This document shows positions 48,606 to 64,000 of a DNA stretch of 64,000 nucleotides, in pieces (the first letter of the stretch is position 1; the number at the start of each line of letters is the position of its first letter). Made by a program: the position numbers and the translations under genes. The notes under the pieces are model-generated. The model saw nothing but the letters and a program-made list of their open reading frames with translations, ran no database searches and was not told the origin of the DNA. The stretch covers positions 2,845,501-2,909,500 of the forward strand of contig NZ_CP077089.1 of NCBI RefSeq assembly GCF_014268445.2, read 5' to 3'. The DNA is from Pseudomonas tensinigenes (GTDB taxonomy: Bacteria; Pseudomonadota; Gammaproteobacteria; Pseudomonadales; Pseudomonadaceae).

Positions 48606-48689
48606 CTTGTGGCCCTTCGGCGTTAGTCGGTAATTGGCAGTCACGTTAGAGTCGTCGGCACGCACTGGCAACCCCCGGATGAACCGACC

Positions 48690-49688
48690 ATGACTCGCCC
48701 ACGTTTTTTACCTGATAACTTCACCCTGACACTGATTGGCGTCGTGCTGCTGGCCAGTTTTCTACCGGCCAGCGGCCAGGTCGCCGTCGGCTTCGGCTGG
48801 CTGACCAACATCGCCATCGCCCTGCTGTTTTTCCTGCATGGCGCCAAACTGTCCCGTGAATCGATCATTGCCGGCGCCGGCCACTGGCGCCTGCATTTGC
48901 TGGTGTTCGGTTTGACGTTTGTCCTTTTCCCGTTACTGGGCCTGGCGCTCAAACCGCTGCTGTCACCGCTGATCGGCGACAAGCTGTACATGGGCATGCT
49001 CTACCTGTGCGCACTGCCGGCCACGGTGCAGTCGGCGATCGCATTCACCTCGCTGGCGCGGGGCAATATTCCGGCGGCGATTTGTAGTGCGGCGGCATCG
49101 AGCCTGTTCGGGATTTTCCTCACGCCGTTGTTGGTGACGCTGTTGCTCGACGTTCACGGTGATGGCGGTTCGACGCTGGATGCGATCCTGAAAATCAGCG
49201 TGCAATTACTGCTGCCATTCATCGCCGGGCAGATCGCCCGGCGCTGGATCGGCGCGTGGGTCGGGCGCAACAAGAACTGGCTGAAGTTCGTTGATCAGGG
49301 CTCGATTCTGTTGGTGGTTTACGGCGCGTTCAGCGAGGCGGTCAACGAGGGCATCTGGCATCAGATTCCGGTCGTTGATCTGCTGGGATTGGTGGTGGTC
49401 TGCTGCATTCTGCTGGCGCTGGTGCTGTTGGCGTCGACGTTGCTCGGCAAGGCCTTTGGCTTCAGCCAGGAAGACCGCATCACCATTCTGTTCTGCGGCT
49501 CGAAAAAGAGCCTGGCCACCGGCGTGCCGATGGCGCAGGTGTTGTTCGCTGGCAGCACGATTGGCGTGCTGATCCTGCCGTTGATGCTGTTCCATCAGAT
49601 TCAGTTGATGGTCTGTGCGGTGCTGGCTCAGCGCTACGCCAAGCGCCCGGAATCGGTGCCAGAGTTGATGGCGCAAGTCGATCCGTGA
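48690..49688 (+). CDS. Bile acid:sodium symporter-like transporter (YfeH family)
   Basis: Inner-membrane protein of 332 residues with about ten helices, member of the SBF-like (BASS-related) YfeH group. Characteristic parts are FFLHGAKLSRE near 50-60, ALPATVQSAIAFTSLARGN near 108-126 with the helix-breaking crossover, and FCGSKKSLATGVPMA near 270. The physiological substrate of YfeH proteins is not established. It is divergent from the AraC regulator and converges on the siderophore ABC ATPase gene, ten bases from its stop. Confidence 0.9.
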   Translation: MTRPRFLPDNFTLTLIGVVLLASFLPASGQVAVGFGWLTNIAIALLFFLHGAKLSRESIIAGAGHWRLHLLVFGLTFVLFPLLGLALKPLLSPLIGDKLYMGMLYLCALPATVQSAIAFTSLARGNIPAAICSAAASSLFGIFLTPLLVTLLLDVHGDGGSTLDAILKISVQLLLPFIAGQIARRWIGAWVGRNKNWLKFVDQGSILLVVYGAFSEAVNEGIWHQIPVVDLLGLVVVCCILLALVLLASTLLGKAFGFSQEDRITILFCGSKKSLATGVPMAQVLFAGSTIGVLILPLMLFHQIQLMVCAVLAQRYAKRPESVPELMAQVDP

Positions 49689-49698
49689 TCGCCGCAGA

Positions 49699-50454
49699 TC
49701 AGACGATGTCGTCGATCAGGATATGCGACAGCCCTTTGCTGCACTGCTCGATCCGCGCCTCGACCTGATAGACATCGCGCAGCATCTGCTCGGTGATCAC
49801 TTCACTGCTCGGGCCGCTGCCCTGACTGGTGCCATCATCAATCACCAGTACCTGATCGGCGAAACGCAACGCCTGATTCAGATCATGGATGGCTATGAAC
49901 ACAATCACCTCGCGTTGGCGCGCGAGGCTGCGCATGAAGTTCAGCACTTGCACTTGTCGATGCATGTCGAGGGCGCTGGTCGGTTCGTCCATCAGCAGGA
50001 TTTCCGGTTCGCGCACCAGCGTCTGGGCGATGGAGACCAACTGCTGCTGACCGCCGCTGAGTTCACCAAGGTTACGAAACGACAGCCTGGTGATGCCCAG
50101 CGCGGCGAGAATCTCGTCGACCAGTTTCAGCTCATCATCGTGGACCACCCAGCCCGGGGTCAGTTGCTTGCGCGCCAGCAGCACGGATTCGTACACCGTC
50201 AAACGCGCACTGGCATTCAGGCCTTGCGGCATGTAGCTGATGCCCGTCGGGCCTTTTTTCGATTCTTTCAGGATGACCTGACCCGGCCCGTCGATCAGCC
50301 CGGCCATACGTTTGAACAACGTCGATTTGCCGGCCGCGTTGGGCCCGACCACAGCCACCACCTGACCGCCAAAAAACGTCGCCGTCGAGACACCACGAAT
50401 GATCTCGCGCTGACCGTAGCGCGCGCCGAGATTTTCCAGTTGCAGCGTCACCAT
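49699..50454 (-). CDS. Iron-siderophore ABC transporter ATPase (FecE type)
   Basis: ATPase subunit of 251 residues with Walker A GPNAAGKST (37-45), Q-loop in MPQGLNASARLT, signature LSGGQQQ, Walker B ILLMDEPTSALD and the H-switch in IAIHDLNQA. It powers import by the FecCD-type permease encoded upstream; the two genes overlap by seven bases. It is the last gene of the minus-strand siderophore island. The region around the stop shows no clear terminator before the convergent transporter gene. Confidence 0.94.
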   Translation of the reverse strand: MVTLQLENLGARYGQREIIRGVSTATFFGGQVVAVVGPNAAGKSTLFKRMAGLIDGPGQVILKESKKGPTGISYMPQGLNASARLTVYESVLLARKQLTPGWVVHDDELKLVDEILAALGITRLSFRNLGELSGGQQQLVSIAQTLVREPEILLMDEPTSALDMHRQVQVLNFMRSLARQREVIVFIAIHDLNQALRFADQVLVIDDGTSQGSGPSSEVITEQMLRDVYQVEARIEQCSKGLSHILIDDIV

Positions 50455-51509
50455 GAGTTTTTCTTCCCGCCGAGAATCAATGAAATGAAGAACGGTACGC
50501 CGATCAGCGAGGTGACCACGCCGATAGGGAAAATCGCACCGGGGATCAGGGTCTTGCTGACCACCGAACTGGCCGAGAGAATCAACGAGCCGGTGAGCAA
50601 GGAGGCCGGCAAAAAGAAGCGCTGATCTTCACCGATCAGCATGCGCGCGATGTGCGGCCCGACCAGACCGATAAAACCGATGGTGCCGACAAACGCTACG
50701 GGAAACGAGGCGAGCAGGCTGACCATGATCAGCGTCTGAAAGCGCAGGCTGCGCACATTGATGCCGAAACTGGCAGCCTTGTCGTCACCCAAACGCAGGG
50801 CGGTCAAGGCCCAGGCACGTTTGGCGAAAATCGGCAGGGTGATCAGGATCACCAGACAGATCACTCCGAGTTTCGGCCAGGTGGCTTTGGTCAGGCTGCC
50901 CATGGTCCAGAACACCACGGCGGCGACGGCTTGTTCGGTGGCGAAGAACTGCACCAGCGCCAACAGCGCATTGAAAGTGAATACCAGCGCGATGCCGAGC
51001 AGTACGATGGTTTCGGCAGTGACGCCACGGCGCATGCTCAGAAAGTGAATCAACAGCGCCGAGAGCATGGCCATGATGAAGGCGTTGAGCGGCACCATGA
51101 ACTGCGCGGCCAGCGGGAACAACGCCACACCGAAGGCCAGGCCCAGTGCCGCGCCGAAACTGGCGGCGGCGGAAATGCCCAAGGTGAACGGACTGGCCAA
51201 CGGGTTGTTGAGGATGGTCTGCATCTGCGCGCCGGCCAGCGATAACGCCGCGCCAACGGCCACCGCCATCAGCGCTACCGGCAAACGAATATCCCACATC
51301 ACCACGCGCACTTGTGGAGACGCGCTGTCCGGCGAAAACAGGGCGCCGAGCACTTCGCTGAAACTGTAACTTGCCGGGCCCAGTGCCAGATCGAGCAGTA
51401 CACTGCACAACAACAGAATCACCAGCCCGGCGAGTATCAGGCGTTTACGCAACACCAGTCGCCGATAGGTTTCGCGCTGCACCTCGACGGTGTCGGTCAA
51501 TGAACTCAT
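50448..51509 (-). CDS. Iron-siderophore ABC transporter permease (FecCD family)
   Basis: Permease of 353 residues with about ten helices and the FecCD signatures PLASPFTLGISAAASFGAALG near 100-120 and FVGTIGFIGLVGPHIARMLIGEDQR near 270-295, the latter forming the ATPase-coupling and gate region. It probably works as a homodimer because no second permease gene is present. It overlaps the binding-protein gene by four bases (ATGA) and the ATPase gene by seven, so the three are translationally coupled. Confidence 0.94.
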   Translation of the reverse strand: MSSLTDTVEVQRETYRRLVLRKRLILAGLVILLLCSVLLDLALGPASYSFSEVLGALFSPDSASPQVRVVMWDIRLPVALMAVAVGAALSLAGAQMQTILNNPLASPFTLGISAAASFGAALGLAFGVALFPLAAQFMVPLNAFIMAMLSALLIHFLSMRRGVTAETIVLLGIALVFTFNALLALVQFFATEQAVAAVVFWTMGSLTKATWPKLGVICLVILITLPIFAKRAWALTALRLGDDKAASFGINVRSLRFQTLIMVSLLASFPVAFVGTIGFIGLVGPHIARMLIGEDQRFFLPASLLTGSLILSASSVVSKTLIPGAIFPIGVVTSLIGVPFFISLILGGKKNSW

Positions 51510-52687
51510 GGTTTGACCTCAGGATTGCGCAGGCTGACGAAGTAGCCCGACTCATACGGCACGGGCAGAAAACGCTCGTGCAGTTCACGGAATGAGGCGT
51601 CCGGGTCGAGATCGGCAAACAGCCCCGGGTGAAACCATTTGGCCAATTGCTGAATGGCCACGAACTGGTAGGGGCTGTTGTAGAACTGATGCCAGATGGC
51701 GTGAAAGGCTTGTGTCTCCTGAGCCTTGATTCCGGCGTAGGCCGGACGCTGGGTGTACCACGCGAGTTTTTTCCGTGCCTGGTTCATGTCGGCGCCGGGC
51801 CCGACACCGACCCAATGGCCACCGGGTGCAAAGGCTTCCCAGTTGGCCGTGGTGACCACCACGTGCGCCGGATTGGCGACGATGACTTGCTCGGGATTCA
51901 ACTGGCCGAACGTGGTCGGGATGATCCCCCGGGCGATGTTGTTGCCGCCGGCCATGTCGACAAACAAGCCAAAGTTTTCATTACCGAAACTCAGGCAGCA
52001 ATCGTCGGTGTAGCCGCCGATGCGCTCGATGAACACACTCGGGCGCGATGGTTGTTGTTTCTCGATGACGTCGGTGACGCGGTGAATCTGCTGATTGCGA
52101 AAATCAATGAAGGCTTCGGCGCGTTGCTCTTTACCGAACAGTTTGCCGAACAGACGCATGGTCGGTTCGGTGTTCTGCATCGGGTTGTTGCGAAAGTCGA
52201 CGTACACCACCGGGATGCCCAACGCGTCGAGCTTCTCGATATAGCGCGCATCTTCGGTGGCGTGCTGCGCTTCGATATTGAGGATGATTACGTCCGGGCG
52301 CTGCGAGATCGCTTGTTCGATATCAAAGGTGCCGTCTTCAAAGCCGCCGAAGGTGGGGATCTTGGCAATGCCGGGGAATTTGCGCAGGTAGGCGTTGTAG
52401 GTGTCCGGGTCGGACTGGATCAGATCCTTGCGCCAACCGACGATGCGTTCGATCGGGTTTTGTGTGTCCAGTGCGGCGACCAGATACAACTGCCGGCCTT
52501 CACCGAGGATGACCCGTCTGACCGGCAGATGCACCTTGACCTTGCGCCCGAGCAGATCGGTCACTTCGGTGCGCGCCGTATCCGCTTCGCTGGCGTTTGC
52601 ATTGCGCGGCGCCAGCGCAGACAGGCTCAGCAGTCCTGCCAGTAACAGCGCAGCCAGCGCGAGGCTGCGTCGATCGAAAATCACCAT
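51506..52687 (-). CDS. Iron-siderophore ABC transporter periplasmic binding protein (TroA-like)
   Basis: Binding protein of 393 residues: signal peptide about 1-33 (ending ANASEA), then DLLGRKVKVHLPVRRVILGEG and a type III (FecB/BtuF-like) two-lobe fold with a long backbone helix. It is longer than typical FecB (about 300), and carries an unusual GGYTDDCCLSFGNENFG segment. ATG at 52687 gives a good signal peptide; GTG/ATG codons further upstream would add 11 residues. It lies 62 bases behind the TonB receptor gene and probably receives its ligand. Confidence 0.9.
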   Translation of the reverse strand: MVIFDRRSLALAALLLAGLLSLSALAPRNANASEADTARTEVTDLLGRKVKVHLPVRRVILGEGRQLYLVAALDTQNPIERIVGWRKDLIQSDPDTYNAYLRKFPGIAKIPTFGGFEDGTFDIEQAISQRPDVIILNIEAQHATEDARYIEKLDALGIPVVYVDFRNNPMQNTEPTMRLFGKLFGKEQRAEAFIDFRNQQIHRVTDVIEKQQPSRPSVFIERIGGYTDDCCLSFGNENFGLFVDMAGGNNIARGIIPTTFGQLNPEQVIVANPAHVVVTTANWEAFAPGGHWVGVGPGADMNQARKKLAWYTQRPAYAGIKAQETQAFHAIWHQFYNSPYQFVAIQQLAKWFHPGLFADLDPDASFRELHERFLPVPYESGYFVSLRNPEVKP

Positions 52688-52749
52688 GGTCAAAGCCTTT
52701 GCAAAGGTCAGTTCGGCCAACGGCTCACACCGCTGTCCGGCTGAACGTT

Positions 52750-55164
52750 TCAGAAATCGACAGTCGCCGACAGTAATAAGGTGCGCGGTGAGCCTTGGGA
52801 GAACGCGCCATAAGAGGCGACGCCCGACCAGTACTCGTGATCGAACACGTTCTGCACGGTGGCGCGAAACGTGGTCGGTCGATCATCGATGCGCGTGCTG
52901 TAGCGGGCGCCGACATCGAAGCGGGTCCAGTCATCGAGTTTTTGTGTGTTGGCCTGGTTCACGTACTGGCTGCCGGTGTGGATCGCGCCTCCGGTCAGTG
53001 TCAGCCCCTCGACCCAAGAGGTGTCCCATTCGGCCCAGAGGTTGGCCTGAACCTCGGGCACGCCGACCGGTTTATTGCCGCGGTTGGCGGCCACGCCGGT
53101 TTTCGTCAGTTCGGCATTGAGCAACGTCACGCCGCCGAGCAGGCGAGTGCCCGGCGTGACTTCGCCAAACACGTTCAGCTCCAGCCCGCGATTGCGCTGT
53201 TCGCCTTGTACCGAGAACACCCCGGAGGCCAGTTCGCCGCTGGGTTTGGTGATTTGAAACAGGCTGATGGTGGAGGTAAACGTGCCGTAATCGGCTTTGA
53301 CCCCGAGTTCGTGCTGGCGGGAAACATAAGGGGCAAAGATCTCGCCAGCGTTGGACGCGGTGGAAGGCGCGATGTCGCCCTTGCTCAGCCCTTCGAGGTA
53401 GTTGTAGTAGAACGAAACGTGATCCCAAGGCTTGATCACCGCGCCGAACAACGGTGTCGTCCGGCCGTCGTCGTAGGACGTGGTCACCACGCCGGCGGCG
53501 TTGTAGTTGTCGGATTTGATGTTCTGTTTGCGCAAGCCCAGGGTTACCTGCGCGCGGTCATCGAGAATCGACAGCGTGTCGGCAAGCGCCACGCCAGTCA
53601 GTTCGCTCTGCGAGACCTTCGGCGTATCCGGCTTGGGGATGTAAGGTTGCGGGCGATCCACCGGGTGATAAATGTTCGACAGGATCGGTGCGCCGGAAAT
53701 GATCCCGCGCGACAACACATCGCGATAGCGACTGACTTGCACGGTGGTGCGGTGACTGATCGGCCCGGTATCGAAGCGCAGCCGCGCACCGGCATCAACG
53801 GTGTAACGCTCGACTTCGAACTTGTAATAACCGGGGATCGACGAGGTGTCGCCAGCGGCATTGATAATGGTCGGCGTCTGGTCGGACATTCGCGCCACAT
53901 CCGATTTGCCGCCGCCGGCATGGGCGAATACCGTCAACGCATCGCTGAGGTCGTATTCGCTGCTGAGCAGCGCCGATTTGTCCTGGGTTCGCGACCAGCC
54001 CCAATCCTGACTGACGTTGCTGCGGCCGTTGGCGGCGGAAGGAATGTCCACGCCTGGAGCAATCAGGAACGGTCGCGAAGCGGCGTCGAAGCTTTCTTTC
54101 TGGTTGAGCCAGTCGAAGGTCATGCGCAGGCGGTCGCCCTGGTAATCGAGGGAGATCGCGCCGATGTCGACATGCCGCGATTGATCGTCGATCGCCGTGT
54201 TGCCCAGTTGCGTACTGCCGTTGAAGCGCACACCGAAGCGGCGTTCTTCACCGAAGCGGCGACTGACATCGAGATGGCCACCGGCCTGAGCATCCATGGC
54301 GTAACTGGCGGTGAAACGGGTCAGGTCTTCATCGAGGGAGCGTTTCGGCACCACGTTGATCACGCCGCCCACCGCGTTGTTGGGTGACATGCCATAGAGC
54401 AGGGCGCCGGGGCCTTTGACCAGTTCGATGCGCTCGGCGTATTCGGTGAACACCCGGTAATTGGGCGCCACGCCATACACGCCGTCGAAGGCCAGTTCAC
54501 CGAGGTTGCCTTCGCCGACGGGAAAGCCACGGATGAAGAACGAGTCGACAATCCCGCCGGTCTGGCCAGTGGAGCGCACCGAGGAGTCACGTTCCAGCAC
54601 ATCGCCGACGGTGACGGCCTGTTGATCCTTGATCAGCGCCGAGGTGTAGGTGCTGATGCTGAACGGCGCGTCCATCACGTCAGTGTTGCCGAGCAAGCCC
54701 AGACGTCCGCCATTGGCGACCTGGCCACCTGCATACACCTGCGGTAGGGCATCGCTGCGCTTGTCGGTGCCGATCACGGCGGTTTCATCCAGCGTCACCC
54801 GGCGCTGCACCAATGTGTAGCTGCCGTCGTTGCGCAAGACCATGTCCAGGCCACTGCCGGCCAGCAAGCGAGTGACCGCCTCTTGCGTTGAGTAATGACC
54901 GATCAGCGCAGGGTTGGTCAGGCCTTCGGCCAGCGAGGGCTCGAACGACAGGGCAATGTTGGCGTCCACGGCGAAGCTCGACAGGGTCGCACCCAGTGGC
55001 CCGGCAGGAATGTTGTAGGCACGAACCGCGACAGCGTCCAGTTGCACCGGCACGGCGGCCAAGACAAACGGGCAAACGGCACCGATCAGAACAAGGCTTA
55101 GCAACGCACTGCGAACAACGGGTTTGAGCTGACGTTCCGGGCGCAGATGGCGTGCGGCAAGCAT
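52750..55164 (-). CDS. TonB-dependent siderophore receptor with STN signalling domain
   Basis: Outer-membrane receptor of 804 residues. Signal peptide about 1-36; an STN signalling domain at about 45-120 (AYNIPAGPLGATLSSFAVDANIALSF); a TonB-box-like DETAVIG near 127; plug domain at about 150-265 (QAVTVGDVLERDSSVRSTG, GPGALLYGMSP); then a 22-strand barrel ending in Phe. The STN domain passes ligand occupancy to the FecR-type protein encoded next door, which releases the FecI-type sigma factor. Similarity is to FpvA/FoxA-type siderophore receptors. The 96-base gap before it should carry the sigma-dependent promoter, but I could not identify its -35/-10 boxes with confidence. Confidence 0.94.
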   Translation of the reverse strand: MLAARHLRPERQLKPVVRSALLSLVLIGAVCPFVLAAVPVQLDAVAVRAYNIPAGPLGATLSSFAVDANIALSFEPSLAEGLTNPALIGHYSTQEAVTRLLAGSGLDMVLRNDGSYTLVQRRVTLDETAVIGTDKRSDALPQVYAGGQVANGGRLGLLGNTDVMDAPFSISTYTSALIKDQQAVTVGDVLERDSSVRSTGQTGGIVDSFFIRGFPVGEGNLGELAFDGVYGVAPNYRVFTEYAERIELVKGPGALLYGMSPNNAVGGVINVVPKRSLDEDLTRFTASYAMDAQAGGHLDVSRRFGEERRFGVRFNGSTQLGNTAIDDQSRHVDIGAISLDYQGDRLRMTFDWLNQKESFDAASRPFLIAPGVDIPSAANGRSNVSQDWGWSRTQDKSALLSSEYDLSDALTVFAHAGGGKSDVARMSDQTPTIINAAGDTSSIPGYYKFEVERYTVDAGARLRFDTGPISHRTTVQVSRYRDVLSRGIISGAPILSNIYHPVDRPQPYIPKPDTPKVSQSELTGVALADTLSILDDRAQVTLGLRKQNIKSDNYNAAGVVTTSYDDGRTTPLFGAVIKPWDHVSFYYNYLEGLSKGDIAPSTASNAGEIFAPYVSRQHELGVKADYGTFTSTISLFQITKPSGELASGVFSVQGEQRNRGLELNVFGEVTPGTRLLGGVTLLNAELTKTGVAANRGNKPVGVPEVQANLWAEWDTSWVEGLTLTGGAIHTGSQYVNQANTQKLDDWTRFDVGARYSTRIDDRPTTFRATVQNVFDHEYWSGVASYGAFSQGSPRTLLLSATVDF

Positions 55165-55260
55165 GGATGAATGAGCCTATAAACAGGACGAAAAGGTGCT
55201 TCTCCCCAATAGCCAGTCGAGATCGGAAAAAGTATCAGCCTAAGGCAAATATTTTTTCAC

Positions 55261-56238
55261 TCAGGCCGGAGAGAGCATGACCCAGTAGCCATTCAAATGG
55301 CCGCTGACGAGGATCGGGTAGGTTTGCGCCAGCATGTTCAGGGTGCGCTGGCTGTCGCTGATCGGGTAGGCGCCGGAAATGCGCAGATCGGCAAGCGCCG
55401 GATCGAGGCGCACGAAGCCACGGCGATAGCGCGTCAGTTCTTCGACGAAGTCGGCCAGGCGCATCTTGTCAGCCATCAGCATGCCTTGACTCCAGGCACC
55501 GACATAACGGTCGGCAACGCTGAGCTGGCCAAAGGTGTGGGACGAGAAGTCGGTGCGTTGACCGGCGTTGACGATCAGTGGCGAGGTCTGGCGATTGTCC
55601 GCGAGCTCGACTTTGACCGCGCCTTCCAGTACCGCGAGGTGGGTGCGCGGTTGCAGTTCGCGCACGGTGAAACGCGTACCCAGCGCCTGCATGCGGCCGT
55701 GACGGGTGCTGACCAGAAACGGTCGCGCCAGCGGTGAAATGTCCGGCGCGGTCTGCACCAGTATTTCGCCTTCGCGCAGGTGGATGAGGCGTTGATTGGC
55801 GTCGAACCGCACGTCGATGGCGGTGTCGGTGTTCAGGGTGATTTTCGAACCGTCGGCCAGGGTCAGCTCGCGTTGCTGGCCAATCGCTGTGCGGTAGTCG
55901 GCTGACCATTGCTGCGACTCTGCCAGCTTCCAGCTGCCCCAACCGGCCGGCAGGATCGCCAGAATCATCGCCAGTTTGCCCAGCGCCGCACGTCGTTCCG
56001 GGCTGCTCGGGCGATCGAGCGCCGACATTGCCAGTGAGGGTGGCAGGCCGCCGAGTTTGGTCTGCAGCAACTGCGCGCGGGCCCAGGCACGACTGCGCTC
56101 GGGAGTGCTGGCTTTCCAGTATTCCCATTCGCCGCGTTCGCTGTCGCTGAGTTCGCCTTCACTCATGCGGATCAACCAGTCGGCGGCTTCTTCCAGGGCC
56201 TGGTGATCGAGGTGCGGCTCATGGCGGCGGCTGAGCAT
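55261..56238 (-). CDS. FecR-family cell-surface signalling regulator (anti-sigma)
   Basis: Protein of 325 residues: a cytosolic N-terminal DUF4880/anti-sigma part (HQALEEAADWLIRMSEGELS...RGEWEYWKAS near 10-45), one membrane helix at about 88-105 (LAMILAILPAGWGSWKLA), and a periplasmic FecR domain at about 115-215 (RELTLADGSKITLNTDTAIDV, ALGTRFTVRE), followed by an STN-binding C-terminal region. It relays the receptor signal to the sigma factor. The start follows the sigma factor stop without a gap (TGA then ATG). Confidence 0.93.
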   Translation of the reverse strand: MLSRRHEPHLDHQALEEAADWLIRMSEGELSDSERGEWEYWKASTPERSRAWARAQLLQTKLGGLPPSLAMSALDRPSSPERRAALGKLAMILAILPAGWGSWKLAESQQWSADYRTAIGQQRELTLADGSKITLNTDTAIDVRFDANQRLIHLREGEILVQTAPDISPLARPFLVSTRHGRMQALGTRFTVRELQPRTHLAVLEGAVKVELADNRQTSPLIVNAGQRTDFSSHTFGQLSVADRYVGAWSQGMLMADKMRLADFVEELTRYRRGFVRLDPALADLRISGAYPISDSQRTLNMLAQTYPILVSGHLNGYWVMLSPA

Positions 56239-56754
56239 TCACTCCACCAGCAACAGGCACTGCACGAAGGCTTGCTTCATGTAGCGTTTGACGGTGATCA
56301 GCGACACACCCAACTGCTCGGCGATGTCGTCGTATTTCAGCCCGCTGATCTGCGACAGCAGGAATGCGCGTTTGACCAGCGGCGGCAGGGCGTCGAGCAT
56401 CGCGTCGATTTCGTGCAGGGTTTCCAGCACCATGAAACGCAATTCCGGCGAAGGCACTTCCGGCGCCGGCACATGGGCGAGGGCGTCCAGGTAGGCACGT
56501 TCCAGCGCCTTGCGCTGATACCAGTTGACCAGAATGCCCTTGGCCACGCAGCTCAGATACGCGCGCGGCTGCTCAATGACGGTGACTTGCGAGGCGAGGA
56601 TGCGCGTGAAGGTGTCCTGCGCCAGATCCGCCGCATCCATGGCGTTTCCCAGTTTTTTTCTCAGCGTCGCGTACAGCCAGCCGTGATGGCCGCTGTACAG
56701 GGCTTCGATCGCGCGCAGGTGATTGGCATTATTCGCGGGAAGGGTTTCGCTCAT
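56239..56754 (-). CDS. FecI-type extracytoplasmic function sigma factor
   Basis: Sigma70 region 2 (LYSGHHGWLYATLRKKLGNAMDAADLAQDTFTRIL, about 19-53) and region 4 (LPPLVKRAFLLSQISGLKYDDIAEQLGVSLITVKRYM, about 122-158) in a 171-residue protein, typical of iron-starvation sigma factors. It should transcribe the receptor and ABC genes when its FecR partner signals ligand. A Fur-like palindrome lies 20-38 bases before its ATG, fitting iron repression. It follows the class V aminotransferase gene by 85 bases, so it probably has its own promoter. Confidence 0.94.
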   Translation of the reverse strand: MSETLPANNANHLRAIEALYSGHHGWLYATLRKKLGNAMDAADLAQDTFTRILASQVTVIEQPRAYLSCVAKGILVNWYQRKALERAYLDALAHVPAPEVPSPELRFMVLETLHEIDAMLDALPPLVKRAFLLSQISGLKYDDIAEQLGVSLITVKRYMKQAFVQCLLLVE

Positions 56755-56773
56755 GGCTGCAGATTTTCATGCA

Positions 56774-56792
56774 ATTGAGAAGTATTCCCAAT
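56774..56792. promoter_or_regulatory. Fur-box-like palindrome before the sigma factor gene
   Basis: ATTGAGAAGTATTCCCAAT has 8-base arms with one mismatch around GTA. It resembles the ATGAGAATnATTCTCAT class of Fur sites and lies 20-38 bases upstream of the sigma factor start. Confidence 0.55.
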
Positions 56793-56839
56793 GCTAGTTT
56801 ACAAAGCCGCTGGGACGCAAGCGCCGATTGGTGTCCTGT

Positions 56840-58024
56840 TCAGACGCCCTGCAAACCGCGCAGTGCAGCGACCATCGTGTCGATTTCCGCCTCGGTGTTG
56901 TACGCATGCACCGAGGCACGGCTGACCTCCAGCAAGTCCCTGTGCTGCATGTCGAGCAGGGTCGAGCGGAACGTCGAGGTGCTGACGTTGATGCGCTTTT
57001 CCTGGCCGGCCAGCCACTGTTGCACCTGCGCGGCGCTGTGGTTTTGATGGGTGAACGTGACGATCCCGGATTTCTGTAGCCCCGGATCCTGTGGCGTGAC
57101 GCCGGGAATCTCAAGTAGTCGCTGGCGCAGGTAACCGGCCAATTGCTGAATCCGCAACCACATCGGCTCGATGCCTTGCGCCAGCGCATATTCCACCGCC
57201 GCACCGAGGCCCAGCTTGGCGGCGACGTTGCATTCCCAGTTCTCGAAGCGTCGGGCGTCGGCGCGGATGGTGAACGTGTCGGCGCTCTGCAACGCGGCGG
57301 CATGCAAGTCGAGAAACGCCGGCTCAAGGTTCTGGCACAGAGACTTTTCGACATACAAAAAACCCATCCCGCGCGGCCCGCGCAGGTATTTGCGGCTGGT
57401 GGCTGCGAGCATGTGGCAGCCGATTTTCTGCACGTCGATCGGCATCTGCCCGACACCCTGACACGCGTCGAGCAGAAACAGCACGCCAGCCGAACGGGCG
57501 AGGGCGCCGATCTGCTCGATGGGCTGCACCGGGCCGCCATTGGTGGCGATCACCGGCAGCGAGATCAGCGCGACCCGATCATCCTCGAGCATGGTCGTTA
57601 GTGCCGACAGGGAAACCTGGCCGTGTTCATCATTGGGGATGACCCGAATCTCGATGCCACGCCGCTGCTTCATTTGCAGATAGGGAATGTAGTTGCCGGC
57701 GTATTCGGTGGTCGACGTCAGCACCACATCGCCGGGTTGCAGCGGCAAGGAGTAGAACGCCATGTCCCAGGCGCGGGTCGCGTTCTCGATCACCGCAATT
57801 TCATCAGGCTGGGCGTTGATCAAACGGCCGATGGTGCCATACACGTTTTCCAGGTCGGCCGATTGCCGTCCGGCAGCTTCATAGCCGCCGAGACTCGCTT
57901 CAAGCTGAATATGACGGGTCATCGTTTCGATCACCGGCGCGGGCATCAGCGCCGCGCCGGCATTGTTGAAGTGGATCAGTTGCGCGACGGCGGGGGTGTC
58001 GGCGCGCAGTTGTTCAATATTCAA
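56840..58024 (-). CDS. Class V PLP-dependent aminotransferase-like enzyme
   Basis: PLP fold-type I enzyme of 394 residues. The Schiff-base lysine is K212 in ATSRKYLRGPRG, with D186 and Q189 in LLDACQGVGQ contacting the cofactor. The RKYLRGPRGMGFLYV stretch resembles EgtE and isopenicillin N epimerase relatives rather than NifS/SufS, and the desulfurase active-site Cys loop was not found. It lies 15 bases after the MFS exporter gene in the siderophore operon, so it probably makes or trims an amino-acid unit of the siderophore. Which reaction, transamination, C-S lyase or epimerisation, cannot be told. Confidence 0.88.
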   Translation of the reverse strand: MNIEQLRADTPAVAQLIHFNNAGAALMPAPVIETMTRHIQLEASLGGYEAAGRQSADLENVYGTIGRLINAQPDEIAVIENATRAWDMAFYSLPLQPGDVVLTSTTEYAGNYIPYLQMKQRRGIEIRVIPNDEHGQVSLSALTTMLEDDRVALISLPVIATNGGPVQPIEQIGALARSAGVLFLLDACQGVGQMPIDVQKIGCHMLAATSRKYLRGPRGMGFLYVEKSLCQNLEPAFLDLHAAALQSADTFTIRADARRFENWECNVAAKLGLGAAVEYALAQGIEPMWLRIQQLAGYLRQRLLEIPGVTPQDPGLQKSGIVTFTHQNHSAAQVQQWLAGQEKRINVSTSTFRSTLLDMQHRDLLEVSRASVHAYNTEAEIDTMVAALRGLQGV

Positions 58025-58039
58025 AAGCAGACTCCTTGA

Positions 58040-59281
58040 TCATTCGCCGTCCGGGGCAGGGCTTGCTTGCATCGCCGCCGGCCAGTAGCGCAACGCGACG
58101 ATCGGGATCAGTGCGACGACGTAAGCGAGGCAAACAAACAGATAGGTGTACTGCAAACCGTAGACCTGACTGAGCAGGCCGCCGGCGGAAATCCCCGCAA
58201 TCGAAGCGAATTGCGCAGTGCCCTGAGCGATGCCCAGTACATGACCCTGTTGCGAGCTGTCGGCGGTCTTCGAGATCAGCGCCATCAACACCGGCGTGGT
58301 CGCACCCAGCAACACACCCCAGATGAAGTAGGCAATAACGAACACCACTGGGTTGTGGGTGACGCCTGCCACCGCAGTGAGGACGATGCAGCCGATGACC
58401 ACGTAAGTCATGCGCTGCAAGGTGTCCTGCTGACCACGGTGTTCGAAATAACGCGACCACGCCGTGGCCGACAGAATGAAGCCCAGCGCCAGCAAGCCGT
58501 AGCACAGACCGACCACCGAATTGCTGACCTCGAACACCGAGCTGACATACAGCGAAAACGAGGTCTGCGGCAGCATCCGCGCCAGCAACAGAATGCCCAT
58601 CACACCGAGCAGCGACAGCAATGGTGAGCCTTGCCAGAGGCTGCCGGAACGAACCGGCGCAGTTTTGTCGGCGACCACGGCTTTCTTCACTGGCGGCACG
58701 TCTGGCAAGGTCACGGCGGCGATCACGGTACACACCGCACACAGCGCCGAAGCGATGATGTTGATCCAGAAGAACGTCGCGTAATCGAGGATCAAACCGC
58801 CGACCACCGCACCCAGCAGCGAGCCGACATTGGTCGAGATCTGCAGAATGGCGAACAGCCGTGCGCGCCGCGACGGCGCTTCAATGCTCACGCCGTAGGC
58901 CTGTGCCGGGGCGATATAGCCGGCAAACGCGCCTTGCAGAAAGCGCAGGATCAGAATCACCCAGATATCACTGAAGAGCGCCAGCCCCAACTGGGTCAAC
59001 GACAAACCGGCGAGGGCGCGGATCATCATCAACTTGTGGCCGTAGCGATCACCGATCCGGCCCCAGAAGGCACTGGTGAGAATAATGCCCAGCATCGGCC
59101 CGACGTACACGGCGATGCTGGCGAAGCTGAAAAGCGACTCTGACGTCGTCAGCCCACGCAGGTGGACAGGCCAGAACGGCCCGCTCATTTCCATCGCGCC
59201 CATCGATACCAACTGGATCGCAAATAGAAGATAAATCAGGATTCTTACTCTCGAACCCTGGATGGCACCTGCTTGGGACAT
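58040..59281 (-). CDS. MFS exporter, probable siderophore export
   Basis: A 413-residue permease with twelve helices; motif A-like GRIGDRYGHKLMM near residues 70-82 and motif C-like GSLLGAVVGGLI near 150. Position between the NIS synthetase (13 bases) and aminotransferase genes suggests that it exports the finished siderophore to the periplasm, as SbnD or YhcA do in other NIS clusters. The polar C-terminal tail is short. Multidrug efflux is the alternative if the operon context is misleading. Confidence 0.9.
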   Translation of the reverse strand: MSQAGAIQGSRVRILIYLLFAIQLVSMGAMEMSGPFWPVHLRGLTTSESLFSFASIAVYVGPMLGIILTSAFWGRIGDRYGHKLMMIRALAGLSLTQLGLALFSDIWVILILRFLQGAFAGYIAPAQAYGVSIEAPSRRARLFAILQISTNVGSLLGAVVGGLILDYATFFWINIIASALCAVCTVIAAVTLPDVPPVKKAVVADKTAPVRSGSLWQGSPLLSLLGVMGILLLARMLPQTSFSLYVSSVFEVSNSVVGLCYGLLALGFILSATAWSRYFEHRGQQDTLQRMTYVVIGCIVLTAVAGVTHNPVVFVIAYFIWGVLLGATTPVLMALISKTADSSQQGHVLGIAQGTAQFASIAGISAGGLLSQVYGLQYTYLFVCLAYVVALIPIVALRYWPAAMQASPAPDGE

Positions 59282-59294
59282 GAGTCAGCCTCGG

Positions 59295-61145
59295 TTAAAC
59301 GCTAGCGAGCGGGTTGGTCAGGGTGTGTTGCAAACGATAGTTGCTGTACTGCATCAAGTGCATGCGCAACAGCGAACGGGTTGGCCATGGCTCTTCGACG
59401 AACGCCTTGTGCTCGGTTTCCCACACGTCTGCCGCGACCCGGTCACGCACCGCTTCGAAGGCGAGGTCGGTTTCTTCGCGCAAGATTTGCCATAGCCGTG
59501 TGTTGTTGAAAGCGTATTCCTTGGTCAGCCACAGGGCCATTTCATGCAAGTGCGTGAGGAACGCCGCGTCGAGCACAAACATGCGCACCGGCTCGATATC
59601 ACCGCAGAACACCGTCGGCAGAATACCCGGCTGCACGTGCGGTTGCAGGCTGTAACCACGGCCCTCGAGCAACGGCGCGTAAGTGCGGCCATCACCGAAA
59701 TCGCGGATCAGCAGACTACGTGCTTTGCCATCCGGGGAGAACAGCACCATGGTGTTTTGCTGGTGCGCCTCAAGGCCGATGCCGTACATCAAGTAGATCG
59801 CCACCACCGGGTGAGTCACCACTTTGGCGTACTCGCGAAACCAACGCTCGACCTGCGCAGCATTGGCGCGCACGCCGTCACGTTCAATCAGATCGGTGAA
59901 CAGCGGACGACCGCTGCCGGGCAAACGGGTGAACAGTGAAGCCACGGTTATCGGCAGGCACTCATCGTTGCGTTCGAATGCAGGCGCACTGGCGCGATAC
60001 ACCACGGACAGATGACGGCCCGGGTGATCGTCCTGCGTCACCGCGTTTTTGTAACGCACACCGATTTCTTCCGGGAAGATTTCCAGGCGCTGATCGAAGC
60101 CGTTTTCCGTCTCGAGAATCTTGCTGATCACCGTGCTGATGCGCGGCCCCATGTGAATCGACTTGGCTTGCAGGCTGCGCAGTTCGCTGGTCATCCACAC
60201 GGCGATGGGCAGTTTGATCAGCGGCGCGGATTCGTCCAGTACCGGCATCATCGTGCGATAGGACATGGTCGGCAGGGTTGGCAGGTCCGGGCCATCGGTG
60301 ATCAGAATGCCGTCGGCGATTTCCTGCGCGAAGGTTTCCAGCACGTAGGCTTGTAAATGCCAGCTGTGGATCGGCAAGGGCAGCCATTGGTTTTCGTCCA
60401 GCCCCTTGCTGTTGAGCGAGGCTTTCCATTGCGCCCATTGCGTCGGGAAATGCTCGGCGAACCAGGCGCGGTAATCGATCACGTGCGGCATGCTTTCGCT
60501 TTTCGCGTTGTCGGCGCGCAGTGCGGCGATGCGCAGCGGCACCTGTGCGTTGAACTCGGGCGACAGTTGCTCGACCTCTTCATCGGTCAGGCCCGGGCGG
60601 GCTTTCCAGGTCGGGTAATACGGGTGACCTTCCAGCGAACCCCACTGGTCGAGAAGAATGGCGGCGTCCTTGGTTTTGGCGTGCTGGCGCAGGTAGTCGG
60701 TGAAGCTGTCGAGCCCGACATCCTTGGTGGCCTGCTGCAGTCGGGCGTTCCAGTGCTGGCGATGCTGACGGGCATGAGCGTCGTTGCTCAGGCTGTTTTC
60801 CATGTCGGACTTGAGCCCGGCCACGCCTTCGTCGGTCGGGGCGAAGTCGAAACTGTCGCGCAGCACATCGAGCATGTCCTGGTGGCTGGTGATGAGCTGG
60901 CGCACGCCTTCATCGGTCACTAATACCACGTCGCCGTCGTTGACCACGGTATCGGCCGGGCCTTTGGCGATGTAGGAAAAGGCCAGATGGGCGTGGCCGC
61001 CCTTGAGCGGATACGTGGCCTGGTTGCCCTCGACGGAAAAGCTCAGGGCCGCTCGGTCGAGAATGTTTTCCGCAAACAGGCAACGCACCAGACGACGCAT
61101 GGCGTTTTTGCGGGAGTAGGCGATCAGTGTCTTGAAGTCATCCAT
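59295..61145 (-). CDS. IucA/IucC-family NRPS-independent siderophore (NIS) synthetase
   Basis: NIS synthetase of 616 residues that uses ATP to join a carboxylate such as citrate to an amine or alcohol. ATP-binding elements are GHPYYPTWKARPGL at 173-186, SYRTM at 295-299, a conserved K311 region, and the C-terminal EAHQQN (459-464) followed by RDFGDG (481-486), the FhuF-like half. The usual HPxHP triad appears as HPYYP, with Tyr177 in place of the second His, a noticeable variation. It follows the opine-dehydrogenase-family gene by 36 bases. It is the only NIS synthetase visible in the window; another may lie beyond the end. Confidence 0.93.
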   Translation of the reverse strand: MDDFKTLIAYSRKNAMRRLVRCLFAENILDRAALSFSVEGNQATYPLKGGHAHLAFSYIAKGPADTVVNDGDVVLVTDEGVRQLITSHQDMLDVLRDSFDFAPTDEGVAGLKSDMENSLSNDAHARQHRQHWNARLQQATKDVGLDSFTDYLRQHAKTKDAAILLDQWGSLEGHPYYPTWKARPGLTDEEVEQLSPEFNAQVPLRIAALRADNAKSESMPHVIDYRAWFAEHFPTQWAQWKASLNSKGLDENQWLPLPIHSWHLQAYVLETFAQEIADGILITDGPDLPTLPTMSYRTMMPVLDESAPLIKLPIAVWMTSELRSLQAKSIHMGPRISTVISKILETENGFDQRLEIFPEEIGVRYKNAVTQDDHPGRHLSVVYRASAPAFERNDECLPITVASLFTRLPGSGRPLFTDLIERDGVRANAAQVERWFREYAKVVTHPVVAIYLMYGIGLEAHQQNTMVLFSPDGKARSLLIRDFGDGRTYAPLLEGRGYSLQPHVQPGILPTVFCGDIEPVRMFVLDAAFLTHLHEMALWLTKEYAFNNTRLWQILREETDLAFEAVRDRVAADVWETEHKAFVEEPWPTRSLLRMHLMQYSNYRLQHTLTNPLASV

Positions 61146-61181
61146 ATCAGTGGTCTGCTCGTCGAAAATTGAATAGAGATA

Positions 61182-62342
61182 TCAAGCGGCGGCGCTTGTC
61201 GTGTGGGGCCATTGGCGCGGGAAATAGTCGAGTGCCGAGTCGCGCAGGCCATTCATGTAGGCCACGCTCCACTGCAGGACTTCCTCGATGTAAGGCACCT
61301 TGAGATCGAAACGCTTGGCCATTTCCACCAGCAGCACCAGGCCGTAGGCGACGTCTTCGTTGAAGGCGCGGCTCTCGCGCTCGATCACGTAACCGGCGCG
61401 GTTGTCCGCGGCCGGCACCATCGGCGCAAGGATGTCGTTGTAGGCCTGATTGGTGCGCAGGATCGAGAGCATGCTGCTCGGGTCGCGGATCTGCTCGCCG
61501 TAAGCCTCGACGATTTCCTGTTTCAGCGCTTTCACCGAAGACAGGTCGATACCCAGACGCTGGCTGATCACCGCGCACAGTTGCTGGCTTTCCTGATCCA
61601 TGCGTTCAAGGAAATACGCGCCGAGTTCCGGGCATTCGGTCCACCAGCACATGCGCTGCGGGAAAATCTTGCGGTGCCACTGGCCGTAGGGGCCGATCAG
61701 GCCGTAGATCACCGAGCTGTGCATGATCGGGTTGCCCGGCGTCAGGGTGATTTCCAGAAAATGCTCGAGCATGGTCACGCAAGGGCCGTACAGTCTGATC
61801 AATATTTTCTCCAACTGGCGCCGCGCGGTTTGTGGCTCCCGGGCGTGGGTCGCGACGTACAACTGGCTTTTGCCGCCGCCCATTTTGATCGAACGTCCCG
61901 GGGTCAATTCGAACGCCGTGTGCGGCACATCCTTCATGCCCCAGATCACCACATTCGGTCGATCGGGCAGGGTGGCTTCGGCCAGCCAGTCGAAACCGCA
62001 GAAGCCGGGAATGGCGCCGATGAACACCGGTTTGCTGGTGGTCAGATGCGGCGCGATGTCTTTCAACGTTTGCGGACGCGCATGGGCCGGCACGGTGATG
62101 ATGACGATGTCGGCATCTTCCACCGCGGCTTTCGCGTCGCTGGTCACCCGATCGAGCCGGGCGCTCAGGGTCGAGCCGTCCGGCAGCAACGCCTGCATCG
62201 GCGTCTGGCGAGCGTGTTGTTCGATGACCTCCTGATTATGGGTGTGCATCGAAACTTGAACATTGGGTAGCTGCTTGAACAGGATGGCGTTGAGATGGCC
62301 GGTCCTGCCGCCACCACAGATGGCGACTTTCAACAGATTCAT
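61182..62342 (-). CDS. Octopine/nopaline dehydrogenase-family (opine dehydrogenase) protein
   Basis: NAD(P)-dependent enzyme of 386 residues. A Rossmann N-terminal domain with GGGRTG at 10-15 is followed by the helical octopine dehydrogenase domain with the catalytic His region NPIMHSS (H208). Family members reductively condense an amino acid amine with a 2-oxo acid; CntM and its relatives do this in staphylopine and pseudopaline. Its presence in an IucA/IucC operon next to an SbnA-like gene suggests that it builds a secondary amine carboxylate linkage in the siderophore. The gap to the SbnA-like gene is 28 bases. Confidence 0.88.
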   Translation of the reverse strand: MNLLKVAICGGGRTGHLNAILFKQLPNVQVSMHTHNQEVIEQHARQTPMQALLPDGSTLSARLDRVTSDAKAAVEDADIVIITVPAHARPQTLKDIAPHLTTSKPVFIGAIPGFCGFDWLAEATLPDRPNVVIWGMKDVPHTAFELTPGRSIKMGGGKSQLYVATHAREPQTARRQLEKILIRLYGPCVTMLEHFLEITLTPGNPIMHSSVIYGLIGPYGQWHRKIFPQRMCWWTECPELGAYFLERMDQESQQLCAVISQRLGIDLSSVKALKQEIVEAYGEQIRDPSSMLSILRTNQAYNDILAPMVPAADNRAGYVIERESRAFNEDVAYGLVLLVEMAKRFDLKVPYIEEVLQWSVAYMNGLRDSALDYFPRQWPHTTSAAA

Positions 62343-62370
62343 CGAGAGGCGTTCCTGTATGAAGGGTGGG

Positions 62371-63414
62371 TCATGCGACGCTCAGTTGCAGCGGCGCTGA
62401 AACGCTGTCCAGCCAGTGGGTCTTGCCCAGCCAGGCGTCCAGTTGCGGAGCGATGCTCGGGTCGATCAGGTCGCGCTCTTGCAGCCACTTGTCGTCGAAC
62501 ACGGTGTGCAGGTATTTCTCGCCGCCGTCGGCGATCGGCACCACGACGTTGCCGCTCAGCACGCCTTTGTGGATCAGCTCCAGTGCCTTGAAGATCGCAC
62601 CGCCAGTGGAGCCGCCGACCAGCAGGGCGAAGTTGCGCGCTATGTAGCGCGCGGTTTCGAACGCCTGCGAATCGGTGACTTGCACGCCCAGATCGATGCA
62701 GCTGTAGTCGAGCACCAGACCCACGGTGTCGCCGGCCGGCGTACCGGTGCCGGATTGGTAGTAGGGATAGCCGGGGTGGCCGAAGACAATCGAACCGGCC
62801 GGTTCCACCGCGACGGTGACGGTGTCCGGGTTGTGCACTTTCAAGCCGCGAGCGATGCCGGTCATCGAACCGCCGGTGCCGACACAACCGACGTAAGCGC
62901 CGACCACGCCTTCAGCCTGCACGATGGCTTCGCGGACGAAATCACTGTAGCCGCCGGCATTGGCCGCATTGTCGGACTGGTTCATGAACACCGCGCCGGG
63001 AATCTCGCTGGCCAGTTCGGCAGCCATCTGTTGCCGCTCGACCACCGCGACTTCATCTTCGCGATAGGTGCCTTTGACGAAACGAATGTCGGCACCGAGG
63101 GCCTTCATCACGGCGATCTTGTCTTGCGCGGCGTGGTGATCGACTACGGCGATGAAATGCAGACCGAACTCGACCGCGGCCATGGCCAGACCAATCCCGG
63201 TATTGCCCGACGACGATTCGACCACGACACCGCCGGGTTTCAGGCGACCGGACTTGAGCGCCGCCAGCACCATGTTGCGCGCCATGCGGTCTTTGATACT
63301 GCCGCCGGGGTTGTTCTTTTCAATCTTCAACAACAATCGCGCGTTGGTGTCCGGAACATCGATGCCCAACATCGGTGTATTACCAATAAGGTCAGAGACT
63401 TTATTCAAGATCAT
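62371..63414 (-). CDS. SbnA-like PLP enzyme (cysteine-synthase fold, 2,3-diaminopropionate pathway)
   Basis: Fold-type II PLP enzyme of 347 residues, longer than housekeeping CysK/CysM. K41 in NPGGSIKDRMA is the Schiff-base lysine; SSSGNTG at 67-73 and GTGGSMTG near 178-185 hold substrate and PLP phosphate. The GSIKDR, DHHAAQDK and YPYYQSG features fit SbnA, which joins O-phosphoserine and glutamate to a precursor of L-2,3-diaminopropionate for staphyloferrin B. SbnB, an ornithine-cyclodeaminase-type partner, is not in the window; an opine dehydrogenase family gene takes the adjacent position instead. A cysteine biosynthetic role is unlikely in this operon. Confidence 0.87.
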   Translation of the reverse strand: MILNKVSDLIGNTPMLGIDVPDTNARLLLKIEKNNPGGSIKDRMARNMVLAALKSGRLKPGGVVVESSSGNTGIGLAMAAVEFGLHFIAVVDHHAAQDKIAVMKALGADIRFVKGTYREDEVAVVERQQMAAELASEIPGAVFMNQSDNAANAGGYSDFVREAIVQAEGVVGAYVGCVGTGGSMTGIARGLKVHNPDTVTVAVEPAGSIVFGHPGYPYYQSGTGTPAGDTVGLVLDYSCIDLGVQVTDSQAFETARYIARNFALLVGGSTGGAIFKALELIHKGVLSGNVVVPIADGGEKYLHTVFDDKWLQERDLIDPSIAPQLDAWLGKTHWLDSVSAPLQLSVA

Positions 63415-63428
63415 TGCAATTGTTCCCT

Positions 63429-64000
63429 TTAGTAGTCAGGTGAAAACGCATAGTTACCTTCCGTACAACAGGTCGCCATCAACCGCCGGGGCAGGGGATG
63501 GCGATGAAACTCGTTTTCCAGCAAGTCCATCTGGTAACCGGCGGTGTTGATATAAATCAATAAGTCACCGGCTTGCGGTGCCGTTGCAAAGTTGATCAGG
63601 CGATGGGTAATGACGTCATCGTCCAGGCAACTATGGCCGGCGATATAAGCCTGGATCGGGGCGTGTGGCTGTTGTTTGGTGCTGACAAGTATCGGATCTA
63701 CCAGATATTCCGAGGCAAACCAGGTTTCGCAAGCGCTGAAACTGCTGCCCTCCACGAAGATCACGGTTTTATTGTCAGCCAATTGTTTGCTGCGGGTGAC
63801 GCGAAATATTGAAATGGCGGCTTGATCGACCAGACTTCGGCCGGGTTCGAGTGCGAGGGTTATATTCTGCGTCTGCAAGTAATTGGCAATCGACAAGCCC
63901 AGCGAATGCTCGGCTTCGAGCAATAACGTCAGCCATTGCGTCGCGGTCAGTTCACTGCCGTAAGGATAATAAGTGGCGGGAACTTTCTGGTTGTAATAGT
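63429..64000 (-). CDS. Group IV PLP decarboxylase (SbnH / diaminopimelate decarboxylase-like), N-terminally cut by window end
   Basis: C-terminal about 190 residues of a fold-type III decarboxylase; the frame is still open at the last base. EPGRSLVD is the PLP-phosphate motif, GHSCLDDDV matches the catalytic Cys/Asp loop (GxxCxxxD) and NTAGYQMD the C-terminal substrate-side Tyr motif. The nearest type in a siderophore setting is SbnH, which decarboxylates a citryl-diaminopropionate intermediate to an ethylenediamine unit; diaminopimelate decarboxylase is the housekeeping relative. Its stop lies 14 bases before the SbnA-like start, so it is in the same operon. Confidence 0.85.
   Translation of the reverse strand, partial: YYNQKVPATYYPYGSELTATQWLTLLLEAEHSLGLSIANYLQTQNITLALEPGRSLVDQAAISIFRVTRSKQLADNKTVIFVEGSSFSACETWFASEYLVDPILVSTKQQPHAPIQAYIAGHSCLDDDVITHRLINFATAPQAGDLLIYINTAGYQMDLLENEFHRHPLPRRLMATCCTEGNYAFSPDY

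Follow-up and report, generated by a model that had tools for sequence, protein, structure and literature searches.

A Pseudomonas gene cluster uniting an opine dehydrogenase with an IucA/IucC-type synthetase, a probable pathway for rhizobactin and rhizobactin B

We analysed a 64,000-nucleotide stretch of the genome of Pseudomonas tensinigenes (NCBI RefSeq assembly GCF_014268445.2, a single contig of 6.62 Mb, NZ_CP077089.1; positions 2845501-2909500), hereafter referred to as the window, which carries a siderophore gene cluster at its right end. This cluster probably constitutes the pathway by which rhizobactin and rhizobactin B are made, exported, sensed and re-imported (we place the probability at about 0.84). 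The assignment draws on the gene content of the cluster, its conservation, the catalytic residues of its enzymes, a predicted serine-kinase fold, and the presence of sole copies of two key genes in a reported producer. Rhizobactin was described in 1984-85 and is known from Sinorhizobium meliloti DM4. We found no earlier assignment of rhizobactin genes in the open-licence literature, although one may have been made elsewhere. The general kind of cluster is already known; this nonribosomal peptide synthetase-independent siderophore (NIS) cluster would combine an opine dehydrogenase with a LysA-type decarboxylase, an SbnA-like ligase and a serine kinase.

Gene content of the cluster and its link to rhizobactin

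An initial annotation, made from the nucleotide sequence, had described a compact run of minus-strand genes for synthesis, export, regulation and import of a siderophore in positions 49699-64000. Gene by gene, this run is present: all of the named genes are intact minus-strand open reading frames (ORFs), and a Pfam scan identified the Orn/Arg/DAP-decarboxylase fold, PALP, Octopine_DH, IucA_IucC with FhuF, MFS_1, Aminotran_5, Sigma70 (FecI), FecR, a TonB receptor and a periplasmic-binding protein, while the permease and the ATPase were recognized by NCBIfam models scoring below their cut-offs. The intergenic gaps within the biosynthetic run span 13-36 bases and the importer genes overlap. The annotation had also advised a search past the window end. 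In the genome sequence the cluster extends about 5 kb further, and this region completes the truncated decarboxylase gene and adds genes for CitE-like and ParB-like proteins and for a second TonB receptor. The predicted genes are as follows (window coordinates, continued past the window end; those within locus record L003 are added for the last three).

49699..50454, minus strand: Fe-siderophore ATP-binding cassette (ABC) ATPase (NCBIfam heme/FecE ABC ATPase models, below cut-off)
50448..51509, minus strand: Fe-siderophore ABC permease (NCBIfam BtuC/FhuB/FecD models, below cut-off)
51506..52720, minus strand: periplasmic siderophore-binding protein (Pfam Peripla_BP_2)
52750..55164, minus strand: TonB-dependent siderophore receptor with an STN-like signalling domain (Pfam; STN match just under cut-off)
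55261..56238, minus strand: FecR-type anti-sigma factor (Pfam FecR)
56239..56754, minus strand: FecI-type extracytoplasmic function sigma factor (Pfam Sigma70_r2 and r4_2)
56840..58024, minus strand: class V aminotransferase-fold protein, 394 aa, accessory (Pfam Aminotran_5; SufS/EgtE/PvdN models below cut-off)
58040..59281, minus strand: major facilitator superfamily (MFS) exporter, 413 aa (Pfam MFS_1; best family model rhizoferrin exporter FslB, 171 bits, cut-off 600)
59295..61145, minus strand: IucA/IucC-type NIS synthetase, 616 aa (Pfam IucA_IucC 174 bits and FhuF 105 bits, both over cut-off)
61182..62342, minus strand: octopine/nopaline dehydrogenase family enzyme, 386 aa (Pfam Octopine_DH; best solved-structure match 3c7a)
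62371..63414, minus strand: SbnA-like pyridoxal phosphate (PLP) enzyme of the Y4xP family, 347 aa (Pfam PALP; about 228 bits with each of the NCBIfam models SbnA and CBS, under both cut-offs)
63429..64823, minus strand (63429..64000 inside the window, start 823 bases past its end): Y4yA-type PLP decarboxylase, 464 aa (Pfam Orn_Arg_deC_N; NCBIfam lysA below cut-off)
65438-66328 (L003 1939-2829), plus strand, beyond the window: CitE-like (citramalyl-CoA-lyase-like) protein, divergent from the decarboxylase
66354-66755 (L003 2855-3256), plus strand, beyond the window: free-serine-kinase-like protein annotated 'ParB', given the 133-aa start of its homologues
66865-69081 (L003 3366-5582), plus strand, beyond the window: second TonB receptor (no STN domain detected)

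The link to rhizobactin is provided by Pseudomonas sp. FEN. According to the available text of its description (PMC7676072), pyoverdine was not detected in this strain, which produces two ligands, rhizobactin (C15H27N3O8, MH+ 378.1866) and rhizobactin B (C16H29N3O8, MH+ 392.2020), the latter being the more abundant. Both contain ethylenediamine, alanine and lysine, together with malic acid (rhizobactin) or citramalic acid (rhizobactin B), and the nuclear magnetic resonance data show that the amide adjoins a CH2 group (PMC7676072). FEN carries the cluster (L078, contig NZ_CAJFDC010000013.1), and its biosynthetic genes are 70-90% identical to those of the window over nearly their whole length (83-84% in the case of the NIS synthetase and the opine dehydrogenase). 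The position of the amide beside the CH2 group corresponds to the end of citrate at which NIS enzymes form their amides. The FEN genome contains one match to PF04183 (IucA/IucC) and one to PF02317 (Octopine_DH), both located in the cluster; the genome of the window strain also has one match to each. These results support the proposal of the initial annotation that an ethylenediamine unit and an opine-type linkage are combined in an aminocarboxylate/hydroxycarboxylate siderophore that resembles rhizobactin in its logic. The window-type cluster is not named as the rhizobactin source in the available text on FEN (PMC7676072), and Pseudomonas corrugata RM1-1-4 is said, in the accessible part of another report, to have genes for 'rhizobactin siderophores' (PMC5679145).

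Based on the predicted functions of the genes, the pathway may proceed as follows: (i) a free serine kinase of the ParB fold would make O-phosphoserine, (ii) the SbnA-like enzyme would join the alpha-amine of lysine to O-phosphoserine in a beta-replacement, yielding N2-(2-amino-2-carboxyethyl)lysine, (iii) Y4yA would remove CO2 to give N2-(2-aminoethyl)lysine, which contains the ethylenediamine bridge, (iv) the opine dehydrogenase would couple this compound reductively with pyruvate, at the expense of NAD(P)H, creating the alanine-like end, (v) the NIS synthetase would form an amide between the lysine epsilon-amine and malate (rhizobactin) or citramalate (rhizobactin B), (vi) the CitE-like protein may supply citramalate from acetyl-CoA and pyruvate, and (vii) the MFS protein would export the product, which would be taken up by the TonB/ABC system with induction through FecI/FecR. 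Step (iii) presumably comes before step (iv), because a PLP decarboxylase needs a free alpha-amine. Serine, lysine and pyruvate, combined with malate or citramalate and with each enzyme used once, reproduce both published formulas exactly, and the ions calculated for them (378.1871 and 392.2027) agree with those observed in FEN.

Conservation of the cluster in Proteobacteria

Two peptide patterns derived from seven opine dehydrogenases were used to find related loci; 95 were confirmed, and the best 80 of them were compared, so the counts below hold for this subfamily. Genes lying more than about 10 kb from a locus would be missed, and contig or locus boundaries truncate two of the loci (L084 and L049). 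All 80 loci encode the opine dehydrogenase and the NIS synthetase, and 79 each encode the decarboxylase, the SbnA-like enzyme and the MFS exporter. A gene for the ParB-like protein is present in 74 loci; the CitE-like protein is encoded in 33 of them and the class V aminotransferase in 23 of the 80. Since each of the core genes occurs in 79 or 80 of the 80 loci, the core is not a chance neighbourhood. The hosts, whose lineages were taken from the record titles, include Proteus, Providencia, Pectobacterium, Samsonia, Arsenophonus, Pseudomonas, the betaproteobacteria Paraburkholderia, Polaromonas and Vogesella, and further rhizobia, Thalassospira and Bosea. Within Pseudomonas, the opine dehydrogenase was found in 26 of the 398 genomes searched, including that of the window strain.

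Residue conservation was assessed in alignments from which rows reaching less than 85% of the query were dropped, leaving 79 opine dehydrogenases, 76 Y4yA decarboxylases, 78 SbnA-like enzymes and 53 serine-kinase-like proteins of the 80 loci. The low number of the last is at least partly explained by the query used, which carried a 19-residue N-terminal extension in comparison with homologues starting at 133 aa. When aligned to octopine dehydrogenase 3c7a, all 79 opine dehydrogenases retain H212, R324 and D329, the catalytic His/Arg/Asp of that enzyme. The PLP-type lysine and the C-terminal cysteine of Y4yA are kept in 76 of 76 loci. The SbnA-like enzymes share 67-74% identity across proteobacterial classes, which argues for a single conserved substrate. 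The NIS synthetase of the window shares 99% identity with proteins labelled Pseudomonas fluorescens and P. neuropathica, which probably places the strain in the fluorescens group. When the Pseudomonas synthetases are compared with those of Proteus or rhizobia, the identity drops to about 50%.

The latter value, together with the uneven occurrence of the accessory genes for the class V aminotransferase (23 of 80 loci) and the CitE-like protein (33 of 80), leaves some room for a relative of rhizobactin in which one building block is changed (a different diamino acid or keto acid, or citrate as the acyl donor) in the window strain or in the proteobactin producers, so that only some members of the group make rhizobactin. 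We regard this as rather unlikely, in view of the high identity of the SbnA-like enzymes, the invariant catalytic positions of the opine dehydrogenase in the 79 aligned loci, and the 83-84% identity of the NIS synthetase and opine dehydrogenase of the window with those of FEN.

Two genes merit separate comment within the proposed rhizobactin pathway. The ParB-like protein possesses the predicted fold and the catalytic Glu, Asp and His of free serine kinases (SerK/SbnI), although one of the 53 aligned rows is without the conserved Trp. We propose, on the strength of this predicted structure, that the protein, which databases list as 'ParB N-terminal domain-containing' or 'transcriptional regulator', functions as a free serine kinase. 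The CitE-like protein has the (S)-citramalyl-CoA lyase RipC as its best model and is the sole match to this model in the FEN genome as well as in that of the window strain. Of the 33 gammaproteobacterial loci, 32 carry its gene, versus 1 of 47 alpha- and betaproteobacterial ones. This distribution fits the main acyl groups, citramalate for Pseudomonas FEN and malate for the siderophore of rhizobia.

Several observations weigh against the assignment of the cluster to rhizobactin and rhizobactin B. The proposed pathway includes no step for the class V aminotransferase. Among the NCBIfam models, the NIS synthetase scores best with that of FslA, the citrate-using synthetase of rhizoferrin (276 bits, well under the membership cut-off of 1000), and the CitE-like protein scores 160 bits with the RipC model, which has a cut-off of 375. 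The serine-kinase gene is absent from six of the 80 loci (L025, L031, L037, L039, L040 and L048), all of them betaproteobacterial, so it is not indispensable. Searches of the six whole genomes at an E value of 0.01 gave no serine-kinase match except one of 0.007 in G419, which was counted as noise, and no replacement was recognized by eye among the unmatched ORFs of these loci. Because FEN makes the malate form although it carries the CitE-like gene, the synthetase must accept both acids. The relationship between the CitE-like gene and the acyl group rests on two chemically known strains and has exceptions, as the gene is present in Bosea and is lacking, within the fetched stretch, from one Arsenophonus; no S. 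meliloti DM4 genome was among the records returned. Every substrate and product, and also the tie between genes and product, is something that we infer. Finally, the authors of the FEN study, in the available text, drew attention to homologues of rhbAB, genes known from rhizobactin 1021, and came to no settled view of the biosynthesis (PMC7676072).

Some features of individual loci were also recorded. The class V aminotransferase gene occurs in 19 of 21 Pseudomonas loci, 2 of 12 loci of Enterobacterales (both Arsenophonus), 2 of 18 betaproteobacterial loci and none of the 29 alphaproteobacterial ones; it is also found on a plasmid of Serratia. This plasmid, pE28_003 of Serratia marcescens (67-kb record, L006), carries the cluster with IS903B lying between the receptor and decarboxylase genes. 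The insect endosymbionts of the genus Arsenophonus (L012 and L013) retain the cluster; the SbnA-like gene of the aphid symbiont appears to be split in two, and the triatomine symbiont shows no CitE-like gene within the fetched stretch. Two Y4yA matches each are present in the clusters of Sinorhizobium glycinis and S. shofinae (L070 and L072). The Bosea locus (L068), in which the cluster is arranged in two divergent arms, is the sole CitE-bearing locus of the 29 from Alphaproteobacteria and would provide a natural test of the malate/citramalate rule.

Relationship to known siderophore systems

The initial annotation had considered the cluster distinct from those for pyoverdine, achromobactin and pseudopaline. 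This holds for the pseudopaline type: staphylopine and pseudopaline clusters are defined by CntL together with CntM, and no nicotianamine-synthase-like CntL domain was found among the domain matches of the scanned cluster genes. Judged by sequence comparison, the cluster is of a known type and not an orphan, matching both the proteobactin (pbt) operon and the y4 genes of Sinorhizobium fredii NGR234.

All 11 genes of a Proteus mirabilis locus (L007) have a BLAST counterpart in the window cluster (E 1e-5). The identities of the biosynthetic proteins are 48% (serine-kinase-like), 47% (CitE-like), 48% (Y4yA), 72% (SbnA-like), 53% (opine dehydrogenase) and 49% (NIS synthetase), and those of the transport proteins 49% (MFS exporter), 46% (receptor), 59% (periplasmic binding protein), 54% (permease) and 40% (ATPase). 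The gene content of this locus agrees with that of the P. mirabilis proteobactin operon pbtABCDEFGHI (Himpsl et al. 2010, as presented in the available text of a 2024 review, PMC11026637), and the same text classes proteobactin as a hydroxycarboxylate siderophore, with oxaloacetate taken as the likely substrate of the NIS synthetase (PMC11026637). The gene order differs (permease, ATPase, CitE-like on the other strand, NIS, receptor, Y4yA, SbnA-like, opine dehydrogenase, MFS, periplasmic binding protein, ParB-like), and the Pseudomonas version additionally contains FecI/FecR, a class V aminotransferase without counterpart in L007, and a second receptor.

In the symbiotic plasmid pNGR234a of NGR234, the genes y4yB-y4yA-y4xP-y4xO-y4xN-y4xM are located inside a type III secretion locus. 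Their order is ParB-like, Y4yA, SbnA-like, opine dehydrogenase, NIS and MFS, and the NIS synthetase and the opine dehydrogenase are each 50% identical to those of the window. Unlike the window cluster, this locus shows no annotated CitE-like gene, receptor or importer within the fetched stretch (8 kb on each side). Nor was a CitE-like gene seen next to the cluster of S. meliloti AK83. The role of these genes has been called enigmatic, and inactivation of y4xP in S. fredii USDA191 improved the nodulation of one soybean cultivar, according to the accessible part of a review (PMC3973906).

On balance we lean towards the view that rhizobactin-type siderophores are the products of one conserved gene set found in alpha-, beta- and gammaproteobacteria, insect endosymbionts among them; that proteobactin is rhizobactin B or its near twin; that the y4 genes of NGR234 make rhizobactin; that this clade of NIS synthetases uses malate or citramalate instead of citrate; and that acquisition of the CitE-like gene caused a shift of the main product from the malate to the citramalate form. 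If this is true, it fills the gap of the rhizobactin genes and corrects the attribution for FEN that was based on rhizobactin 1021, it predicts the structure of proteobactin from the genome, and it assigns a function to a group of genes in rhizobial type III secretion loci, y4xP included. The 'ParB' or 'transcriptional regulator' annotation would be reassigned to a serine kinase, and a pathway type uniting an opine dehydrogenase with an NIS synthetase would be defined. These predictions are cheap to check by mass spectrometry.

The staphyloferrin B (sbn) pathway resembles the window cluster in its SbnA-like and SbnI-like steps and in the alanine-racemase fold of the decarboxylase. As an sbn-type control we used locus L128, in which SbnA and SbnB score over cut-off and the decarboxylase was named SbnH by its place beside the SbnA, SbnB and NIS genes. 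This control locus contains two NIS ORFs, whereas the window cluster has one, and in the trees neither the SbnA-like enzyme nor the decarboxylase of the cluster falls within the branches of its counterparts, the control SbnA rows and the L128 decarboxylase, respectively. The SbnA-like enzyme of the window scores 228 bits with the SbnA model, under the cut-off of 350 that three control SbnA rows exceed (402-431 bits), and the 15 cluster rows form their own clade beside these controls in a tree with long branches.

The 'SbnH-like' label for the decarboxylase was not borne out. LysA is the best-scoring model of Y4yA, below its cut-off, and the best solved-structure matches are diaminopimelate decarboxylases. 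In a tree with long branches the Y4yA rows separate from the L128 decarboxylase, although the tree includes one wrong row, the non-homologue L129_4813, and if this is counted the Y4yA group needs two changes. Since no SbnH model matched the L128 decarboxylase, the control is weak, and the Y4yA protein is best described as a putative LysA-like enzyme that is not demonstrably SbnH-like.

SbnB (TIGR03944) scored over cut-off in one of 20 cluster-bearing genomes, which we chose among those behind the 80 loci with the addition of the window strain's, and a match of some strength was obtained in 19 of the 20. In the genome of the window strain there is no SbnB over cut-off, its two weaker matches reaching at most 103 bits versus 327. 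The single genome with a true SbnB is that of Pseudomonas crudilactis (L043), where SbnB lies beside a true SbnA at locus L095, which points to a separate 2,3-diaminopropionate pathway elsewhere in that genome. Membership of the window cluster in the staphyloferrin B type was rejected, as there is no SbnB over cut-off and the SbnA-like enzyme is not SbnA; the sbn route was kept as a rival mechanism.

In this mechanism the product would be a citrate siderophore similar to staphyloferrin B or rhizoferrin: the opine dehydrogenase would replace SbnB and oxidatively cleave the opine-like product of the SbnA-like enzyme to 2,3-diaminopropionate and 2-oxoglutarate, the decarboxylase would create the ethylenediamine unit, and the NIS synthetase would add citrate, giving for example dicitryl-ethylenediamine. 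The serine-kinase/SbnI-like and SbnA-like genes do parallel the sbn pathway, the scarcity of SbnB over cut-off suggests that something may replace it, and FslA and FslB are the best family models of the NIS synthetase and the MFS exporter. The likeness to the rhizoferrin (fsl) system goes no further, however, as all of the models score far below their cut-offs (the decarboxylase reaches 21.5 bits with FslC versus 500) and an opine dehydrogenase is present. Both FEN ligands have lysine, alanine and malate or citramalate parts (PMC7676072, available text), and the sole NIS and Octopine_DH genes of FEN lie in the cluster. In addition, the calculated MH+ of dicitryl-ethylenediamine (409.11) fits neither ligand, and a citrate product leaves the CitE-like gene unexplained, so we consider this mechanism improbable.

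RhbA and RhbB supply 1,3-diaminopropane, a three-carbon diamine, whereas the bridge of rhizobactin has two carbons. It is accordingly very hard to believe that the two rhbAB homologues annotated in FEN by its authors (PMC7676072, available text) make rhizobactin B and that the window-type cluster makes something else or is silent, the more so as a malyl or citramalyl amide is expected to need a synthetase and the only IucA/IucC match of FEN is in the cluster.

Receptors and neighbouring genes

The two TonB receptors of the window strain are 71% identical to each other (683 columns), and this pair may be a duplicate split into signalling and uptake roles. A plain scan with the 19-base Fur consensus was uninformative: the best site, upstream of the second receptor gene, matched 13 of 19 positions, and the window contained 43 sites with at least 12. 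Adjoining the second receptor gene are divergent genes for a LuxR-type response regulator (L003 6110-6715, minus strand) and a hybrid sensor kinase (L003 6830-8452, plus strand). On the other side, next to the importer genes (window positions 47817-49688), there is an ORF for an AraC-type regulator and, divergent from it, one for a membrane protein resembling bile-acid/sodium symporters, both assigned to their families by eye.

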